DNA from: Bacteroidota bacterium
Lineage (GTDB): Bacteria > Bacteroidota > Ignavibacteria > Kapaibacteriales > UBA961
Assembly (NCBI GenBank): GCA_018266765.1
Contig: JAFDZU010000004.1
Location: forward strand, 6,209 to 61,158
Length of the DNA: 54,950 nucleotides
Reading direction: 5' to 3'
The notes below the pieces were generated by a model. That model was not told where the DNA came from. It saw nothing but the letters and a program-made list of their open reading frames with translations, and made no database searches. The position numbers and the translations under genes were made by a program. Of this stretch, positions 3 to 54,950 are shown one piece after another. Position 1 is the first letter of the stretch. Each line of letters opens with the position of its first letter.

Positions 3-1004
3 AAAAAACAATTACGTGAAAAAGGAATCCTACTGCAATGTGAATATGCCGTTATCTTGGATAAAAATGATTCGGTTTTGATGGCAAATACACAAGATGT
101 TCGTTCGGAAACCAAAGCAAGCCATTATACAGCCGCTATGTTCCCGAATGATATTATTCCAAAAAATTACTCATTGCGAGTTTTTTTTCCTAATCAGAAG
201 TCTTATATTTTGCAGTCTCTTTGGGCATTAATGGCATCGTCAGGTGTATTCCTTTCCATTATTATTGCAACCTTTGGTTTTACAGTAATTGCACTCGTTC
301 GCCAGAAAAAGCTCTCTGATATGAAAACAGATTTTATCAATAACATGACTCATGAATTCCAAACACCGATTGCTACAATATCACTTGCAAGCGAAGCACT
401 CCGCGATGGTTCAATCATAGCAAATGAAGATCGCCGTTCTCGATTTGTGAATGTCATATTTGATGAAAATAAACGACTTGGCAAACAAGTAGAATTAATT
501 CTCCAAGCGGCTTCACTCGAAAAAGGTAGATTTTCAATTAACCCAAAGGAAATTGACATTCACCAAATAGTTATTTCGGCAGTCCAACATATTTCTATGC
601 AAGTAGAAAAAAAAGGCGGCAATATCTTCTGTCATTTGAATGCTTTTCATTCGGTTGCATTTGCTGACGAAGCACATATTAGCAATATTCTTCATAATTT
701 ACTTGATAACGCAAGTAAATATTGCCCAGATTCACCCGAAATTATCGTAACGACAAACAGCAATTCACAAGGAATATCTATTTCTATTAAAGATAACGGA
801 ATTGGAATGTCGCGTGACCAACAAAAACGGGCGTTCGAACGATTCTACAGAGTGCCAACAGGTAATCGTCATGATGTCAAAGGATTTGGGCTTGGGCTAA
901 GTTATGTAAAATCAATGATAGAAGCTCATGGCGGAACTGTGTCAGTCAATAGTGAATTAGGTAAAGGCAGTACGTTTAATCTCTTTCTTCCCTTTAGAAG
1001 TTAA
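3..1004 (+). CDS. Sensor histidine kinase, 5' end cut by window
   Basis: Membrane-bound sensor kinase that autophosphorylates on histidine and passes the phosphate to the regulator encoded just downstream. The frame is already open at base 3 without a start, so the gene begins outside the window; the TTG at 57 is internal. A hydrophobic segment (about 210-300) is followed by the HisKA phosphoacceptor box NNMTHEFQTP, with its histidine at 351-353. The HATPase domain shows the N box LLDNASKY, the G1 box DNGIGM, the F box FERFYR and the G2 box GFGLGLSYV. All motifs needed for an active kinase are present. Only the end of the periplasmic sensing region is visible, so the signal cannot be judged. 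The pairing resembles RprX/RprY of Bacteroides, but that is an inference. Confidence 0.93.
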   Translation, partial: KKQLREKGILLQCEYAVILDKNDSVLMANTQDVRSETKASHYTAAMFPNDIIPKNYSLRVFFPNQKSYILQSLWALMASSGVFLSIIIATFGFTVIALVRQKKLSDMKTDFINNMTHEFQTPIATISLASEALRDGSIIANEDRRSRFVNVIFDENKRLGKQVELILQAASLEKGRFSINPKEIDIHQIVISAVQHISMQVEKKGGNIFCHLNAFHSVAFADEAHISNILHNLLDNASKYCPDSPEIIVTTNSNSQGISISIKDNGIGMSRDQQKRAFERFYRVPTGNRHDVKGFGLGLSYVKSMIEAHGGTVSVNSELGKGSTFNLFLPFRS

Positions 1005-19096: not shown

Positions 19097-19384
19097 TTAT
19101 TTTTTGCCTGTTTTTTGATCTTTACGATTACCTGCATGTCCTCGGAATGTTCTTGTAGGTGCAAACTCACCGAGTTTATGCCCTACCATATTTTCCGATA
19201 CATACACTGGTATAAATTTATTACCATTGTGGACTGCAAATGTATGACCTACAAAATCAGGCGCTATCATCGATGCGCGTGACCATGTTTTCACAACTTT
19301 TTTAACATTAGTAGCATTAAGTGCATCTATTTTTTCGATGAGCTTATAGCTTATAAAAGGTCCTTTTTTGAGCGAACGTGCCAT
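19097..19384 (-). CDS. rpsS: Ribosomal protein S19
   Basis: Small-subunit head protein, 95 aa, forming a pair with S13. [19 protein letters not shown] at the start and [19 protein letters not shown] near the end are diagnostic. Full length and in the usual place between rplB and rplV. Confidence 0.98.
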
Positions 19385-19396
19385 AATTTATTTCTT

Positions 19397-20233
19397 TTAC
19401 TTAGTTCTGCGGCGAATAATCATATTGTTAGATTTGTTCTTTTTCTTGCGAGTTTTCAATCCTTTAGCTAGCTGTCCCCATGGTGAACGAGGATGCAAGC
19501 GTCCTCCACCTGATTTAGACTTACCTTCACCGCCACCCATCGGGTGATCAATTGGATTCATTGCCATACCACGAGTTTGCGGCCTGATTCCTAACCAAAT
19601 TTTACGACCGGCTTTTCCATGAAGAATATTCATGTGGTCAGAATTTCCTACAACTCCGAGAGTTGCCATACATTCTGCACTTATCGAACGAATCTCACCG
19701 GAAGGTAATTTAACCTGAGCATAACCATCTGATACACTTACAAGTTGAGCAGACGTACCTGCACTCCGAGCCATTTGCCCTCCTTTACCTGGTTTAAGTT
19801 CTATATTATGGATAAATAATCCAACCGGAACTTTGCCAATAGGTAGTGCATTACCATCTTGTAATTCAACATTTTTACCTGAGATTACAGTTTGTCCAAC
19901 TTTAATTTTATCAGGAGCCAACATGTAACGCTTTTCACCATCTTGATATTGCACTAAAGCAATTCTACAAGAACGGTTTGGATCGTATTCAATAGATTCA
20001 ACTACACCAGGTATATTAAATTTATTGCGTTTAAAATCAATAATACGATACTTACGCTTATGTCCGCCACCACGGTGACGTGAAGTAATACGACCTGTAT
20101 TATTTCTACCACCTGATTTTTTGAGAGTCACAGTCAACGATTTTTCTGGTGTACTTTTTGTTATTTCATCAAAAGTACTTACAGAATAAAATCTTGTTCC
20201 GGGAGTTATTGGTTTAAGTGTTCTTAGTGCCAT
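19397..20233 (-). CDS. rplB: Ribosomal protein L2
   Basis: Large-subunit protein needed for peptidyl transfer and subunit joining, 278 aa. It has [20 protein letters not shown] in the N-terminal part and the conserved loop [19 protein letters not shown], with the key histidine, in the C-terminal part. Standard length and position. Confidence 0.98.
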
Positions 20234-20259
20234 TGTTATTAACTTCGATTATGAGAATA

Positions 20260-20562
20260 TTACTCGTCCGAACCTTCGCCTGTTACAACATCCAAGGTTT
20301 GTCCTTCTTTAAGCGTAATGTATGCCTTTTTTTTAAGATTAGTTCTGCCTCGCATTACACCTTTTTTTGTCATTCTTACTTTACTTTTACCTTTGACTCT
20401 TACTGTACGGATAGATATAACATCAACATCAAACATAGATTCGATTGCGTTTCTAATTTGAACTTTATTAGAGTCAGTATCCACAGCAAATATGTATTGA
20501 CGTAAGTGTCCTATATTTGCAGACTTTTCAGTAATAATTGGGTGTTGTAATACAGTTATCAT
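20260..20562 (-). CDS. rplW: Ribosomal protein L23
   Basis: Exit-tunnel protein and docking site for trigger factor and SRP, 100 aa. LQHPIITEKSANIGHLRQYIFAV would be the N-terminal signature; the segment PIITEKS is diagnostic, and VRVKGKSKVRM follows in the expected place. Neighbours rplD and rplB are 25 and 26 bases away. Confidence 0.96.
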   Translation of the reverse strand: MITVLQHPIITEKSANIGHLRQYIFAVDTDSNKVQIRNAIESMFDVDVISIRTVRVKGKSKVRMTKKGVMRGRTNLKKKAYITLKEGQTLDVVTGEGSDE

Positions 20563-20587
20563 GTTATATTTTTTTCGAAAGAGTCAA

Positions 20588-21214
20588 TTAATTATCAAAA
20601 GTTTTTACTATTCTTTCAATCGCGCTTTTGGAAACAAGCAATTTTTTATGTCTTAGAATATCATACGTAGAAATTTTATCAGCTACAGATGTAGTTAGTT
20701 TAGGTAAATTTCTAGCTGAACAAACAACATTTTTCTCATTATCTGCAACCAAAAACAATGTTTTTTGATTTTCAAGGTTCAATGCTTTTACGACAACAGC
20801 CATTTGTTTAGTTTTAATCTCGCCGAAAGACAAATCTTCTAGAACCAACAAATTATTTTCTCGAAGTCTCAAAGAGAAAGCAGACTTACGGGCTAATCTT
20901 CTTACTTTCTTCGGCAAATCTAATTTGTAAAGATGCGGCTTAGGCCCATGCACAGTTCCACCACCTACCCATACAGGCGAACGATTTGAACCTGAACGAG
21001 CAGTTCCTCGGCCTTTTTGCTTCCACGGCTTTCTACCGCCACCAGAAACTTCTGTTCTAGTCTTGGTTTTGTGTGTTCCTTGTCGCTGATTGGATAAGTA
21101 AACGCGCACAGCTAAATGCATTGCATGTTCGTGAGGCTCTATTCCAAAAACTTCATCAGGTAATTCTACCTGACCAGCGTTTTGTCCATCTTTATTTAAT
21201 ACATTTACAAGCAT
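20588..21214 (-). CDS. rplD: Ribosomal protein L4
   Basis: Large-subunit exit-tunnel protein, 208 aa. The tunnel loop GGGRKPWKQKGRGTARSGSN and the following WVGGGTVHGPKP are diagnostic. In E. coli L4 represses the S10 operon through its leader; whether that holds here is unknown, and no leader hairpin was recognised upstream of rpsJ. Confidence 0.98.
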   Translation of the reverse strand: MLVNVLNKDGQNAGQVELPDEVFGIEPHEHAMHLAVRVYLSNQRQGTHKTKTRTEVSGGGRKPWKQKGRGTARSGSNRSPVWVGGGTVHGPKPHLYKLDLPKKVRRLARKSAFSLRLRENNLLVLEDLSFGEIKTKQMAVVVKALNLENQKTLFLVADNEKNVVCSARNLPKLTTSVADKISTYDILRHKKLLVSKSAIERIVKTFDN

Positions 21215-21226
21215 TATGTTTCTCGC

Positions 21227-21847
21227 TTAGTGCTTTACGATTTCTACTAATGAATTAATTGCTCCCGGAACATTCCCTTTGACAAGTAGTATGTTAGTAT
21301 CGGGCATTATGTCTATAATTTCTAAATTTCTTGTTGATATTCTTTTACCACCCATACGACCAGCCATTCTCAAACCTTTAAAAACGCGCGATGGATACGA
21401 CGAAGAACCAATTGATCCTGGGGCACGTGGTCGGTCTGATTGTCCGTGTGTTGTCATTCCAACACCACCAAAATGGTGACGTTTAACAACACCTTGAAAT
21501 CCACGACCTTTACCGGTACCACTTACTTTTACTTTATCACCTTTTTGGAAAACTTCTACCGTAAGAACTTCACCAATATTCAATGTCTCAGCAAGATGAC
21601 GAAACTCTTTTAGGTGTCGTACAGGTTCTACACCTGATTTTTTAAAATGTCCTTCGAGTGGCTTATTAATTTTCCTTGCGGCAATTTCACCATACCCGAT
21701 TTGCACTGCAGAATATCCGTCAGTACTTTTTGTTTTTACTTGAACAACAGGACAAGGACCAGCCTCAATTACCGTTACAGGTATTTGATCGCCTTTATCA
21801 TTATAAACACTTGTCATTCCAAGCTTTTTTCCAAGCAATGCACTCAT
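21227..21847 (-). CDS. rplC: Ribosomal protein L3
   Basis: Large-subunit assembly protein, 206 aa. It starts [20 protein letters not shown] and has [22 protein letters not shown], which contains the glutamine of the conserved FQGVVKRH motif. Full length; between rpsJ and rplD. Confidence 0.98.
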
Positions 21848-41179: not shown

Positions 41180-42358
41180 ATGAAATCTTTTTTACTGTTT
41201 TGCTCTTTTATTATCTTGATAATTTCGGTTCAACTTCAAGCCCAAGTTGTGATTACAAAGTCAAATTTCGAATTCAAATCCGGTACATACCCGAATAATG
41301 CAACACTCCAAAAAGATTATTTTTCACAATTAACTGGTCCAAATCTTATAATAGCACCTCCGGCACTGTCTTCATTTGGTGGTGTCTCTACAGTAACATT
41401 CTTTGATTCCGAATTTCCTCAGCCGAGTAATTCACTTTTTACTAATTCATTTGAAAATTTGAATTCTAATGCTGGATTTAATATTCAAAACATTTTTGTG
41501 GTGGATGATTTGGGGTTTAAACAAACAAGCGTTATGACCGAGGAACAACACTATGATTTATCTGCACAAACAGGTAATCCAAACGATAGCTTAGTTATTC
41601 CTTCTCAATTGGCTTTCACAACCGGTGAACGCATGATTCTCAAATTTCCGGCAACTTCTGAAAGTGTATGGACTTCAAATTTCAGTTGGACTGTTACGGG
41701 AAATATTACTGTTAATTCAGTAGGACTTAAGAATACTCCAATCACCAAATTTGCAACGATAAAACAGCAGGATTCAATTATTGGCTGGGGAAAAGCGCAA
41801 ATCCCAACAGGTGGAGGGAGACTTTCTGCTTTTTATGATGTTCTCATCGAACAAAGAACTCTCGTCCAAGTAGATTCATTCTTTTTGAACGGACAACCAG
41901 TTTCCCAACTTATTGGTGGAGCACTCGGACTTAAACAAGGAAGCACAACTGTAGAACTTTTTCGTAAATTTTGGCGCACTTCATTCATTAATTTAGTTTC
42001 AATAAATTATGGGAAAGATACAACATTCACAACACCACTTTCAATACGTTTTGACGGTACGATTCCACCAATAACTTCTGTAGATGAGGATTTCACAGCG
42101 AGCAATTCAATAGCATATCCAAATCCTACTTCTAACAATGTTACTATTTCGTACAACCAAACAAGCAACACGATGACAACTATAGAGTTTTTCAATCTCA
42201 TCGGTACGAATGTAAAATCAGTTCCGGTTTATTCTTCTGCCGAAACGGTACATATTCCGATTTCTCTTTCTGAATTTGCAAACGGTTTATATCGATATTC
42301 CGTTCGTAATCAACATGGAAGAATACTTAGCCAAGGAAGTGTTACTGTTGTTAAATAA
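41180..42358 (+). CDS. Secreted protein with type IX secretion C-terminal domain
   Basis: Exported protein of 392 aa with an N-terminal signal peptide (KSFLLFCSFIILIISVQLQA, cut before QVV). The last about 80 residues are a T9SS sorting domain of type A: it begins SIAYPNPTSNNVTISY, continues IEFFNLIGTNVKSVPV and closes with ANGLYRYSVRNQHGRILSQG. Such domains target proteins through the outer membrane and are then cleaved or linked to a lipopolysaccharide-like anchor. The middle of the protein has no fold I can name and consists of beta-rich sequence with few cysteines. It is flanked by a divergent lipoprotein gene and a convergent dioxygenase gene, so it is monocistronic. Confidence 0.9.
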   Translation: MKSFLLFCSFIILIISVQLQAQVVITKSNFEFKSGTYPNNATLQKDYFSQLTGPNLIIAPPALSSFGGVSTVTFFDSEFPQPSNSLFTNSFENLNSNAGFNIQNIFVVDDLGFKQTSVMTEEQHYDLSAQTGNPNDSLVIPSQLAFTTGERMILKFPATSESVWTSNFSWTVTGNITVNSVGLKNTPITKFATIKQQDSIIGWGKAQIPTGGGRLSAFYDVLIEQRTLVQVDSFFLNGQPVSQLIGGALGLKQGSTTVELFRKFWRTSFINLVSINYGKDTTFTTPLSIRFDGTIPPITSVDEDFTASNSIAYPNPTSNNVTISYNQTSNTMTTIEFFNLIGTNVKSVPVYSSAETVHIPISLSEFANGLYRYSVRNQHGRILSQGSVTVVK

Positions 42359-49845: not shown

Positions 49846-50850
49846 TTAGTATCGCACTTTAATAAGATAATTTACAGCCGCATTTACAGGACGGGTTTCA
49901 GTCGCATTAGCATTAGCTGAGTTCGAAGTAGATGTTGTATTATTATTAACATTAGTAATAGAATGAGAGTGGGTATCGCCTGATACTGAAACACTAGTAA
50001 CAACTGTAGGTCCACCTGAGCCGGATGTCGCTGCAGATGTACCTGTAGTTCCAACACTCAATGAAACATTTCCAGAAGCATTGTTAGTAGCACTGGCTGC
50101 ATAAACCCCAGTATGAGTGTGGTTTTGAAACGCATCGTCTTGAACATTCCCTACTGCTCTATCTGCATCGGGATCATATTGGGTACCTCCTGCAGGGTCA
50201 ATGCCTCTCAAGAAGAGTCCACGCAAATCAGGAAGATTCGCTGAACCAATTATACTTTGTAATGTAGTCTTCTCATCAGGGAACAGTACATCAGCAGATA
50301 TGGAAGCAATTGATGTCCCGTCACATAAAAACCACCCGCCTAAATTCAATGCTGCTACACTGGCAGCAGTACCATAATAGGGTATAATAGTTCCGATAGG
50401 AGGATTTGTATTTGCTGAACTTGTATAGAATTCTTTACTTTCAAATGCAGTTCCAGAGCCATCAAGGAAAACTTTGGCAGTCAAGGACTTTCTTGTTTTC
50501 GATATGCCTGTCATAATATAGGATATTTCGCCCGTTGTTGCATTATAATTGACAGCCGCCGCTGAAAGAGGCCCGTATGAATAAACAACAGTTCCTAAAT
50601 TATCAGTATAATAAACTTTAAAATCAACACTTGTCGGAGCCGGAATAATTTCGATTGCTGTATAATTAACTGCTGCCCCGGGTGTAGAATTTCCATTACA
50701 ATCTACTGATGCAACAGGAGTAATTGATTTACTGACTTCGTGTACTAACGTTGTTTTAAATTCAAAATTTTCTGCTAATACATTAAGAGTGAAAGCATTA
50801 CTAATTATTGAAAGTAAAAGTATAGAACTAAATTTTATAATCGTTTTCAT
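49846..50850 (-). CDS. Secreted protein with phage tail-collar domain
   Basis: Exported protein of 334 aa. I use the ATG at 50848-50850, which gives a signal peptide (KTIIKFSSILLLSIISNAFT, cut near VLAENF); the upstream ATG at 50919 would overlap the preceding gene. A beta-rich N-terminal region is followed by a tail-collar domain from about residue 165: GWFLCDGTSI, then NLPDLRGLFLRGIDPAG and NHTHTG. A long Ser/Thr/Gly/Asn-rich loop intervenes before the closing ETRPVNAAVNYLIKVRY. Such domains form receptor-binding trimers in phage fibres but also occur in secreted bacterial proteins, as the signal peptide indicates here. It follows the giant repeat protein by 40 bases. Confidence 0.86.
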   Translation of the reverse strand: MKTIIKFSSILLLSIISNAFTLNVLAENFEFKTTLVHEVSKSITPVASVDCNGNSTPGAAVNYTAIEIIPAPTSVDFKVYYTDNLGTVVYSYGPLSAAAVNYNATTGEISYIMTGISKTRKSLTAKVFLDGSGTAFESKEFYTSSANTNPPIGTIIPYYGTAASVAALNLGGWFLCDGTSIASISADVLFPDEKTTLQSIIGSANLPDLRGLFLRGIDPAGGTQYDPDADRAVGNVQDDAFQNHTHTGVYAASATNNASGNVSLSVGTTGTSAATSGSGGPTVVTSVSVSGDTHSHSITNVNNNTTSTSNSANANATETRPVNAAVNYLIKVRY

Positions 50851-50890
50851 AATATTTCCAAGGGTTTGTAAGACAATGAGTAAGGATAAA

Positions 50891-53800
50891 TTAGTTTTTT
50901 GCAGATTTTGACAAACCATTTTTAATCAGTTGGTCAATAGCTGTTTTATTTAATTGATTTTGAATCTTCTTCATTGCAATTTCTTTATATCCGGGTTCTG
51001 AAATCATTTTTCCGAAGAAAGGATGTAGCGCAATGTCTTCACCGGATTCAATAGTTTGTTTCTCAGCAATTTCAAGAGCTTCTTTCATCATATCATCCGT
51101 AAAAAATGCACTTGGAACATTCACCTGTTTGTCATTCTTGCCATTGCTTACAGATGTTATAGTTGTTGATCGGGCAATTGAATGCTGTTGCTGTTGTGGC
51201 ACTGCACTACCTAATACTTCATCCAAGTAATCTTTTGCAGGAGCTTTAGATTGAGTAGGTATAGTAACCGAACGTCTGTATCCCGGAACCAACATAGCAA
51301 GAGTAGAATTTATTTGCTCTAATTTCTCATCTGTTTTGGAAACTGCAAGTTGCAATAATTTAATTTGTTCGGCTTGTTTTTCAACTACCGCATTAAGAGC
51401 ATTGGCATTAAGTCCAACAGCTACTTTGATGATATTCAAATCTTCATTATTTCCTACTGACCAAGCAATTCCAACGATTTTTTTGTAATCTTCTATTGTC
51501 ATTTTACTTGGTTCTACTGCAATTCCTAAACCATTGTTACCACCACTTGGTAGGATATAATCTCCAAGTCTTGCTTTTCCGAGAATTCGCACAGGAACTT
51601 GTCCCATAAACGCAACTTTTTCATACGATTTAGCATTACCAGTTTCCGGAGTATTACCTAATACTATTGGTTTTAGCGAAACAACCATAAGTTGCTCGGC
51701 ATTCGTTGTAGTTTTGCTGATTTTACCACCATGAATACCGACGATATCAGCAGTATTGAATTTTTCTGTTGCACTTGCTTTGGGCAACCACTCTGCATAG
51801 TCAGCTGAGCCGGATTCATACGTAACACCGATATTATTAACAACCATAGTATCATAATCGCATTTGAGTTTTTGAGCGTTATTTTTTGTTTTTATAGCAT
51901 CATCCATGTCAAGTCCTGCCGAAACGATATTAGCTGCATATTTTACAGCATTAGCTATTTTTAGAACAACGTCAGCCGCACCGGTTACTGCAATCGCAGT
52001 ACATCCACCAAGCGTTCCTGCGGCACATGTAACACGGGCTGCCGCATCTCCGGTCGAATTAATTATTTCTGCAGCCCCAATTATACCATCGGCAATTGTT
52101 AGCGAAAGCGCAAAGGCAGCAGATTGAACTCCGTATTCAGCATTACCAATTGCATAATCAAGTTCACGAACAAAATGAAGATGCTCGCTGTCACTGCCGA
52201 GTTCCGCTACAGTTTGACCTTCGATACGACCCACTGTTGCACCCGAACCATTGACAAAACGGACAAAATCATTTGTTGTATTCGGTGTTGCCTTACTTAA
52301 TTTAATAGCGATACCATTATAGTTATTTGAAGTATTGGTATTAATGAACGTTGCCGTAAAGAAATCATTTGCCGCAGTTCCTGTACCTTCAAATCTAAAT
52401 CCTGAAGAATACTTAGCTGAGAATTCATTTGCGATAGCAGTAGCCGCATTTCCAAGAGCAAAACCGTTAGAAGCGGAAGTATTGCCTGTTCCTAATGCAA
52501 ACGATAGTCCACCCGATACGTTATTACTTGTACCTCCGAGTATTCCATTTTGATCACCGGAAGCTATTATATTACTCGAACCACCGAGAATACTATTCTG
52601 ATTACCGGCTGTAATTGTATTACTTGATCCACCCACAATTGCATTGTGATTTCCTGCTGTAATTGTATTGGTTTGTCCACCACCGATAACGCTATGCGTT
52701 CCTGCAGTAATCGTATTTGATTGTCCACCACCCATGAAATCGTGAGTTCCGGCAGTATGAGTATTGGATTGCCCGCCGACGATAACGCTGTGTGTGCCGG
52801 CGGTGTGGGTGTTTATTTGACCACCACCGATAAAGTTATGGGTGCCACCGTTGATGTTGTTGTTTTGGCCGCCGGTAATCGCTCCGAAATGCCCGCCGTC
52901 GGCTATGTTGTTGTCACTGCCCCCGGCAACTGTAGCATTTGTTGCGCCGGTTGCTGTGCCTATGTCATTCAGCGTTCCGCCGCCGATAAAGGAGTTTGCT
53001 CCGCCGTCAGCTATATTATTGTTAAACCCACCACCAATAGTGGCAAAGTTTGCCGCTCCGATGTCGTTAGACTGTCCGTTGAAAATGCCGGCAGAACTTC
53101 CGGTGGTAATGTTGTTGTCGCTTCCGCCGCCGATAGTGGCAAAGTTTGCCGCTCCGATGTCGTTAGACTGTCCGCTGAATATGCCGGTACCACTACCGGT
53201 AGTGATGTTGTTGTCATTCCCACCGCCTATGGTAGCCAAACTTGCCGCACCAATGTCGTTTAGATGTCCGCCGAGGATTGAAGACCCATTGCCGCCGTCG
53301 GCTATATTGTTGTCATTCCCGCCGCCGATGGTGGCGGTTGATGCGCCGGTGGTCGTGCCGATATCGTTCAACGTTCCGCCGCCGATGAAGGAGTTGTTGC
53401 CGCCGGTGGCGATGTTGTTGTTGTTCCCGCCACTGACGGTTGCATACGTTGTTGTGCCGATATCATTATTGATACCGCCACCGATGGTTGAATTCGTTGC
53501 TGTGCCCGCAATGTTGTTGGTTGTTCCACCACCAATCGTGGCACCCGTAGAACTTGCACCGATATTGTTATCATTTCCACCACCGATAAACGCATCAGTT
53601 GATGCAGCAATGTCATTGCTTCGTCCTCCAAAAATGGATGAGTAATTTCCGTTAGTTGCTACGTTGTTATCATTTCCGCCACCAACAGTTGCATACGTTG
53701 TTGTGCCGATATCATTATAAATACCACCACTAATAGTAGAATTAAATGCTCCATTTGAGATAGTGTTTGTTATTCCACCACCAATTGTTGCACCCGCAGA

Positions 53801-54949
53801 ACTTCCGCCGATACTGTTATCCCAACCGCCACCGATGAATGCATCATTTGATGGACCGATGTCGTTAGAACGACCACCAAATATAGAAGAGTACCATCCG
53901 CCTGGGGCTATGGTATTACTATATCCACCACCAATTGAGGAATAATCTCCACCAGAGTATATGTGGTTATCCGAGCCACCGCTTATTGTAGCATACGGTG
54001 CAGAGCCGATGTCATTACTGTTTCCACCACTTATTGTTGAGGAAAATGCACTTGCATTAATTGTATTGCTATGACCGCCACCAATCGTTGAAGCACGAGC
54101 TAACGTGTTGATTGTATTATTCAATCCACCACCTATGGTTGAACCGTCTGCATCATCTATGATTGTATTTTTTGAACCACCACCTATCGTTGAACTGTCG
54201 GTATTATTGATTGTGTTTTGCTCGCCACCACCGATAACACCATAGAGTGATGTTGTCGTAATTGTATTACCACGACCGCCACCGATTACACTTGCTACTG
54301 CTGAAGTTGTAATTGTATTATCGTGTCCGCCACCGATGGTTGAACCGTCCGATTCATTTAAGATTCTGTTGAATGCGCCGCCGCCGATTGTTGCGCTGTC
54401 CGTGTTCGTGACTGTATTTGTCCAACCACCACCAATTGTCCCTACTAAGGAATTCGTTTCGATTTTGTTATCTGAACCGCCACCAATCGTCGATGCGTCT
54501 GATTCATTGATAATGGTGTTATTCGTACCACCGCCGATTGTCGAACTGTCCGTATTATTTAATACATTCAGACGACCACCGCCGATGGTGCCTACGGTTG
54601 AAGTCGTTGTTACCAAATTATCTGCACCACCACCTATCGTCGAAGCATCAGACTCATTTAAGATTCTGTTGAATGCTCCGCCGCCTATCGTTGCACTGTC
54701 CGTATTCGTTACTATGTTTGTCCAACCACCACCAATTGTCCCTACTAAGGAATTCGTTTCGATTTTGTTATCCGAACCGCCACCGATCGTTGAACCGTCT
54801 GCATCTGTGATAATGGTATTATTTGTTCCGCCACCTATCGTTGAACTGTCCGTATTATTTAATACATTCCGACGACCACCGCCGCTGGTTCCCACAGTCG
54901 CTGTCGTTGTTACCAAATTATCTGCACCGCCACCTATCGTTGAACCGTC
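50891..54949 (-). CDS. Giant repeat surface protein, 5' end cut by window
   Basis: At least 1,352 aa; the frame stays open past the window edge, and the TTG at 54916 is internal. From the N-terminal side: about 49 repeats of the form [IV]xGGxxN, spaced mostly 16-20 residues (about the first 815 residues), probably a stacked beta-structure; a short YadA-head-like stretch (FALGTGNTSASNGFALGNAA); a hydrophobic Ala-rich region; a tail-fibre-like module with ESGSADYAEWLPKA and KVAFMGQVPVRILGKARLGD; a predicted coiled coil (VVEKQAEQIKLLQLAVSKTD); and a polar tail. No membrane anchor or T9SS domain is seen in the visible part. It resembles a trimeric fibre; the export route lies outside the window. 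Confidence 0.85.
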   Translation of the reverse strand, partial: DGSTIGGGADNLVTTTATVGTSGGGRRNVLNNTDSSTIGGGTNNTIITDADGSTIGGGSDNKIETNSLVGTIGGGWTNIVTNTDSATIGGGAFNRILNESDASTIGGGADNLVTTTSTVGTIGGGRLNVLNNTDSSTIGGGTNNTIINESDASTIGGGSDNKIETNSLVGTIGGGWTNTVTNTDSATIGGGAFNRILNESDGSTIGGGHDNTITTSAVASVIGGGRGNTITTTSLYGVIGGGEQNTINNTDSSTIGGGSKNTIIDDADGSTIGGGLNNTINTLARASTIGGGHSNTINASAFSSTISGGNSNDIGSAPYATISGGSDNHIYSGGDYSSIGGGYSNTIAPGGWYSSIFGGRSNDIGPSNDAFIGGGWDNSIGGSSAGATIGGGITNTISNGAFNSTISGGIYNDIGTTTYATVGGGNDNNVATNGNYSSIFGGRSNDIAASTDAFIGGGNDNNIGASSTGATIGGGTTNNIAGTATNSTIGGGINNDIGTTTYATVSGGNNNNIATGGNNSFIGGGTLNDIGTTTGASTATIGGGNDNNIADGGNGSSILGGHLNDIGAASLATIGGGNDNNITTGSGTGIFSGQSNDIGAANFATIGGGSDNNITTGSSAGIFNGQSNDIGAANFATIGGGFNNNIADGGANSFIGGGTLNDIGTATGATNATVAGGSDNNIADGGHFGAITGGQNNNINGGTHNFIGGGQINTHTAGTHSVIVGGQSNTHTAGTHDFMGGGQSNTITAGTHSVIGGGQTNTITAGNHNAIVGGSSNTITAGNQNSILGGSSNIIASGDQNGILGGTSNNVSGGLSFALGTGNTSASNGFALGNAATAIANEFSAKYSSGFRFEGTGTAANDFFTATFINTNTSNNYNGIAIKLSKATPNTTNDFVRFVNGSGATVGRIEGQTVAELGSDSEHLHFVRELDYAIGNAEYGVQSAAFALSLTIADGIIGAAEIINSTGDAAARVTCAAGTLGGCTAIAVTGAADVVLKIANAVKYAANIVSAGLDMDDAIKTKNNAQKLKCDYDTMVVNNIGVTYESGSADYAEWLPKASATEKFNTADIVGIHGGKISKTTTNAEQLMVVSLKPIVLGNTPETGNAKSYEKVAFMGQVPVRILGKARLGDYILPSGGNNGLGIAVEPSKMTIEDYKKIVGIAWSVGNNEDLNIIKVAVGLNANALNAVVEKQAEQIKLLQLAVSKTDEKLEQINSTLAMLVPGYRRSVTIPTQSKAPAKDYLDEVLGSAVPQQQQHSIARSTTITSVSNGKNDKQVNVPSAFFTDDMMKEALEIAEKQTIESGEDIALHPFFGKMISEPGYKEIAMKKIQNQLNKTAIDQLIKNGLSKSAKN
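53041..53232. repeat. 96-bp tandem coding repeat
   Basis: TGGCAAAGTTTGCCGCTCCG and the following 20 or so bases occur at 53041 and again at 53137, an exact 96-base offset (32 residues). The two units read IFNGQSNDIGAANFATIGGG and IFSGQSNDIGAANFATIGGG in protein. Confidence 0.85.
54361..54660. repeat. 300-bp tandem coding repeat, copy 1
   Basis: Matches 54661-54950 at a fixed offset of 300 bases with no gap. Most positions agree, and 54417-54472 is identical to 54717-54772 over 56 bases. The unit encodes 100 residues and thus contains about six GGG motifs. Confidence 0.92.
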
Positions 54950-54950
54950 C
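54661..54950. repeat. 300-bp tandem coding repeat, copy 2 (cut by window)
   Basis: Second copy of the 300-base unit, of which 290 bases are visible. Substitutions are scattered and keep the reading frame. More copies may follow beyond the window. Confidence 0.9.

Follow-up and report, generated by a model that had tools for sequence, protein, structure and literature searches.

A candidate MAT-like surface fibre with a phi29 gp12-type chaperone module and a collar-domain partner in a Bacteroidota genome

Related fibres and adhesins

The mosaic adhesive trimer (MAT) fibres of Bdellovibrio, described in 2024, feature a conserved domain of ~130 aa directly after the signal peptide and end in variable tips (PMC10769870). 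The fibre family examined here shares with them a signal peptide, a homologous beta-rich N-domain and a long shaft, as well as a phage-type C-terminal chaperone (present in one MAT subgroup), exchangeable ends and several copies per genome. It differs in that the N-domain scores below the family cut-off, the shaft is a beta-roll repeat, the chaperone belongs to the gp12/G2 type and not to S74, the phage-type end comes from a second gene, and the host group is Bacteroidota.

Two phage proteins provide further points of comparison. The pre-neck appendage protein gp12 of phi29 (3gqh, 3suc) has in common with the fibre the fold of one module, a DxAE motif at the start of that module, and a location at the end of a long fibre. 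Unlike gp12, the protein described here is a secreted bacterial protein with ~150 residues beyond the module, and its cleavage is only predicted. The partner protein encoded beside the fibre resembles the T4 gp12 short tail fibre and phage collar fibres (1ocy) in its collar domain, its HxH motifs and the C-terminal end, but it has a signal peptide and an N-domain of its own, and no phage tail genes lie alongside. Trimeric autotransporter adhesins such as YadA also feature repetitive beta-roll-like head repeats. The YadA head repeat is 14 residues long, whereas that of the fibre is 16/17, and the fibre has no membrane anchor.

A literature search for this fibre family and for Peptidase_G2 fibres in Bacteroidetes found no papers on either. 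Judged by the papers searched, the combination of these parts is undescribed. A first-pass annotation, made from the sequence alone, went further and suggested that fibre and partner form one surface structure not described before; this does not hold in the strong sense, since the N-domain has homologues in MAT fibres (PMC10769870) and the module fold is known. The end that it called tail-fibre-like has the fold of the intramolecular chaperone of phi29 gp12. The locus probably encodes an adhesin fibre that is secreted to the cell surface and follows the Bdellovibrio MAT plan, with a G2 chaperone and a companion collar protein. The fibre seems to be a relative, within Bacteroidota, of the fibres by which predatory Bdellovibrio recognises its prey.

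The fibre gene and its complete relatives

The window, meaning the whole stretch of 54,950 nucleotides that was analysed, ends where its contig does (G000:C51, 61158 bp). The fibre gene runs into this edge and has the following layout:

50891..54949, minus strand: fibre gene, 1352 aa visible, 5′ end missing (open frame to the contig end)
52493..54949, minus strand: putative beta-roll shaft, residues 1-819, 46 strict motifs, period 16/17 (motif count, shuffles, autocorrelation, tandem repeats, model pLDDT at model residues 21-90, LbR_Ice_bind profile in relatives)
52424..52510, minus strand: YadA-head-like passage, residues 814-842 (direct reading of the sequence)
51833..52189, minus strand: two long predicted helices, residues 921-1039, of partly low confidence (model residues 225-343)
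51410..51814, minus strand: predicted phi29 gp12-type intramolecular chaperone/autoprotease module, residues 1046-1180 (3gqh match, Foldseek, profile match)
51800..51805, minus strand: predicted cleavage site A1049-D1050 (aligns with gp12 691/692; D1050 and E1053 invariant)
51290..51406, minus strand: helix read as a coiled coil, residues 1182-1220 (model residues 486-524)
50897..51097, minus strand: conserved helical C-terminal tail, residues 1285-1351 (alignment of relatives; model residues 589-655)

The shaft contains 46 strict [IV]xGGxxN motifs between residues 5 and 803, spaced mostly by 16 or 17 aa, and autocorrelation reveals stronger periods at 50 and 100 residues. Shuffled versions of the fibre hold a mean of 0.65 such motifs and a maximum of 4 (2000 shuffles). 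The roughly 49 motifs counted by eye in the first-pass annotation were thus slightly too many by the strict pattern, although their excess over chance stands. An AlphaFold2 model of residues 697-1352 (63 aligned sequences) renders the repeats as regular short strands with pLDDT 84-90 (model residues 21-90), which is in line with a beta-roll. The other parts recognised by eye are also present: the YadA-head-like passage FALGTGNTSASNGFALGNAATA is read N-terminal to the module, the module strings SGSADYAEWL (residues 1046-1055) and FMGQVPV both occur, and the proposed coiled coil corresponds to a 39-residue helix modelled after the module.

The minus-strand frame is open past the window edge, as had been reported. 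Since the assembly stops inside a tandem repeat that recurs every ~300 bp in the fibre-gene DNA, the missing 5′ end is not a trait of the gene. A DNA search of the assembly for this end found no other contig end with the fibre repeat. A paralog on contig C20 was ruled out as the missing start, with only 39% identity and a different architecture. This second beta-roll repeat protein (L003:3-3338) has 23 motifs by a relaxed pattern and no chaperone module; its own start is cut by a contig end, and a T9SS-tailed protein comes after it.

The N-terminal part of the family is visible in relatives, which were found with the last 513 residues of the fibre as the query. The placement of the source bacterium in the Kapabacteria/Ignavibacteria group is drawn from the record titles of such relatives (Ignavibacteria, Candidatus Kapaibacterium, Chlorobiota OPB56). 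Relatives with an N-terminus are 1466-2070 aa long and feature, in order, a signal peptide (called by eye), an N-domain of ~100 residues that terminates in [ST][VA]PYA or a close variant, 36-80 strict repeats, and the same type of C-terminal end as in the window. These signal peptides agree with the original proposal of a secreted fibre. Some repeat genes among the relatives are split (L062:1-4847, L063:1814-9084, L065:3-4342). Two of the splits are runs of N and one lies at a repeat that looks mis-assembled, so assembly faults are likelier than frameshifts; frameshift or phase variation is disfavoured.

A phi29 gp12-type chaperone module

The modelled module, with pLDDT 92-97 across most of its length, matches the C-terminal fragment of phi29 gp12 (3gqh) in Foldseek (E 3.7e-4) and in VIA-align (Z 12.4, rmsd 2.6 over 114 residues, 23% identity). 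A sequence profile independently recovers gp12, weakly (E 0.0048). Peptidase_G2 (PF11962) matches several relatives, one at 28.2 against a cut-off of 25 bits and one at the cut-off, and the window fibre has no Peptidase_G2 match in the Pfam scan. The structure search also gave many p85/SMC rows; these stem from long helices only and were rejected. Model and profiles together indicate that the module running from SGSADYAEWL to FMGQVPV is an intramolecular chaperone/autoprotease fold of the phi29 gp12 type, similar to Peptidase_G2.

Mature gp12* ends at residue 691 (PMC6542822), and VIA-align pairs model residues 354..483 with gp12 692..854, so the structural match begins right after the gp12 cut. 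Residues S1046, G1047, D1050, Y1051, A1052 and E1053 are invariant in 62/62 sequences with data there, whereas the residue before the predicted cut is A or G, compared with S in gp12. The module may therefore cleave itself at A1049-D1050. It is possible, though we would not presume it, that such cleavage proceeds as in phi29, in which case the mature fibre would end at residue 1049, the module, coiled coil and tail would be discarded, and the end of the beta-roll would bind the target. A match that starts exactly one residue past the gp12 cut and the invariance of the DYAE residues would fit this course of events, but the ~150 residues with a conserved tail that follow the module would be needless on a discarded piece, and the change from S to A or G before the cut also argues against it. 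Self-removal of the chaperone would in addition remove the C-terminal tail, which could then not hold the partner; this counts against a role of the partner as the fibre tip.

Homology of the N-domain to MAT fibres

The N-domain of the family is related to those of other Bacteroidota fibres (hhalign probability 97.5%, E 5.5e-12). Among 18,950 NCBIfam models, Bdello_MAT_N (NF053851) is the only one that matches, hitting 4 of 6 N-domains with E-values of 1.4e-5 and 8.3e-3 in family members and 2.6e-13 at best; the other two have no match to any of these models. A further relative, P0007, matches at E 8.9e-9. Scores range from 15.9 to 24.9 bits in the window's family and reach 50.1 in other Bacteroidota, against a curated cut-off of 60. 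These profile matches indicate that the N-domain of the complete relatives is homologous to the MAT N-domain, while by curated score it is no formal MAT member. The scores below the cut-off, the two N-domains without a match and the lack of an N-terminus in the window copy all weigh against a MAT-like reading of the fibre.

The same genome encodes an 812-aa protein with a signal peptide, a MAT-type N-domain and S74 (contig C24; L080 / L167, near 19186-21282). Its layout is that of the S74 MAT fibres of Bdellovibrio, but it is found outside Bdellovibrio. Together with the S74 domains of the source genome, four in number, this gene makes a MAT-like fibre repertoire in the organism plausible. Neither the window fibre nor the complete relatives have an S74 match. 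Elsewhere in the genome, two S74 fibre proteins (L165:1-2355, G000:C86; L166:814-3171, G000:C60) feature YadA-head-like repeats and, judged by eye, an apparent T9SS sorting tail behind S74, which suggests that a self-assembling fibre may be T9SS cargo.

The partner gene and its inheritance with the fibre

The partner gene has the following features:

49846..50850, minus strand: partner gene, 334 aa from the likely start ATG 50850, with a signal peptide (open frame; relatives)
50404..50778, minus strand: partner N-domain, residues 25-149, a probable FN3-like beta-sandwich (most model blocks at pLDDT 76-89; weak FN3 rows with Z up to 8.0)
49849..50394, minus strand: partner C-half, a predicted collar domain followed by an HxH-containing fibre end ETRPVNAAVNYLIKV (PHROG and T4 short tail fibre matches)

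The open frame spans 49846-50919 and, from its upstream ATG at 50919, would overlap the fibre gene; the start at 50850 is likelier, since it opens a signal peptide. The C-half matches the PHROG tail collar fibre (E 2.8e-27) and the T4 short tail fibre (1ocy, E 3.8e-4; 9cuy, E 1.2e-7). The collar assignment rests on these sequence matches; the fold search was filled with rows for the N-domain and matched no structure to the collar half. Four partners of class c2 keep the N-domain and have another C-half with no collar match.

The pairing of the fibre with a collar-domain protein, first seen in the window, is conserved. When the pair was sought in related genomes, it was recovered across four genera: in each of the 14 fibre-plus-partner loci compared, all from one family, the two genes lie side by side. 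A fifteenth fibre (G002:C668) adjoins lysC and has no partner beside it. Distances among fibres and among partners are correlated (r = 0.89, p = 1e-4; 14 pairs, four genera), and in genomes with several classes each fibre class occurs with its own partner class. The fibre and partner genes are inherited as a unit. Linkage alone could produce this for adjacent genes, so co-inheritance can only suggest contact between the two proteins.

The chaperone module itself is found more widely; among one-per-species genomes, at least 210 stretches encode it. Its taxonomic spread was judged on 79 loci kept from these, which by record titles belong to Bacteroidota and Ignavibacteria/Chlorobiota/Kapabacteria, three being labelled 'bacterium' or Acetofilamentum. 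None was confirmed in IMG/VR, and tblastn found none in phage records; the PHROG profiles include a distant version. Nearly all relatives with a start on the contig have a signal peptide and a YQA/QG-type N-domain. Only in the window's family do the loci seen combine a beta-roll shaft with a collar partner. Flavobacteriaceae loci (L112, L163 and others) often have a protein of 1700-1940 aa downstream of the gp12-type chaperone fibre; in L163, the one scanned, this protein carries LRR repeats as well as a T9SS tail. This chaperone fibre and large downstream protein represent an unexplored gene pair in cultured species. In the Bacteroidales loci L098, L114, L127 and L129 a secreted protein of ~620 aa lies downstream of the fibre; the one scanned (L098) is a lipoprotein with a Fib_succ_major domain. 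Some C-module fibres outside the window's family are without any such neighbour.

These unrelated neighbours of the same C-module in Flavobacteriaceae and Bacteroidales, and the partner's own signal peptide, would be expected if two independent secreted proteins were merely encoded side by side, the collar protein being a short adhesin that makes no contact with the fibre. We consider this rather unlikely, given the adjacency of the two genes at all 14 loci that have both, across four genera, and the class-matched partners within shared genomes.

Genome context and route of secretion

Phage structural genes near the fibre, which the first-pass annotation had named as a sign of a prophage, were looked for. 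Of the eight nearest genes tested, all encode metabolic, envelope or T9SS-type proteins and none is phage-structural; a prophage identity was rejected on these non-phage neighbours. The phage-type folds of fibre and partner do recall a prophage or a decayed phage tail fibre, but such an origin is highly improbable for proteins with signal peptides (on the partner and the complete fibre relatives), conserved in four genera, and with a fibre end that has no match in phage collections. An ice-binding beta-roll protein is scarcely credible either: LbR_Ice_bind (PF21300) reaches 30.2 against a cut-off of 30 bits in one relative, but of the other three complete relatives scanned two fall below the cut-off and one has no match, the window fibre has none, and a chaperone module and paired collar protein would be superfluous in such a role.

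No YadA anchor (PF03895) was found in the fibre gene or anywhere in the genome, and no T9SS sorting domain (Por_Secre_tail) in the fibre (P0001) or its complete relatives; elsewhere in the source genome T9SS tails occur in 149 stretches above the cut-off. The earlier view that the fibre is neither a standard autotransporter nor visible T9SS cargo agrees with this. Within the window, 41180-42358 encodes a protein of 392 aa that carries a T9SS sorting tail.

Proposed function and implications

The reading as a MAT-like adhesin is supported by the module fold, the N-domain homology, the pairing, the co-inheritance, the varied C-halves and the non-phage context. On this reading, the signal peptide seen in relatives would direct export of the fibre, the MAT-type N-domain would hold it at the cell, and the beta-roll shaft, with its variable repeat number, would carry it outward. 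Close to the C-terminal end, the gp12-type chaperone would bring about trimer assembly and perhaps cut itself at A1049-D1050. The collar partner, swapped between lineages while its N-domain is kept, would most likely be a receptor-binding tip or a companion fibre. We infer the trimer state, surface display, cleavage, binding of fibre to partner, and the ligand.

More tentatively, there may be, across the phylum Bacteroidota, an undescribed class of secreted MAT-like fibres whose chaperone is of the gp12 type. In the Kapabacteria/OPB56 family, the fibre and its exchangeable, separately encoded phage-type tip might then constitute a two-component surface recognition device, functionally like the long tail fibre and tip protein of a phage. 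The fibre would have to cross the outer membrane without the help of an autotransporter anchor or a T9SS tail. MAT-type fibres have so far been characterised in a predator. With homologous N-domains on fibres of common Bacteroidota, some of them cultured (Winogradskyella, Flavivirga), phage-type fibres would be a general means of recognising cells or surfaces, an idea that the cultured relatives make testable.
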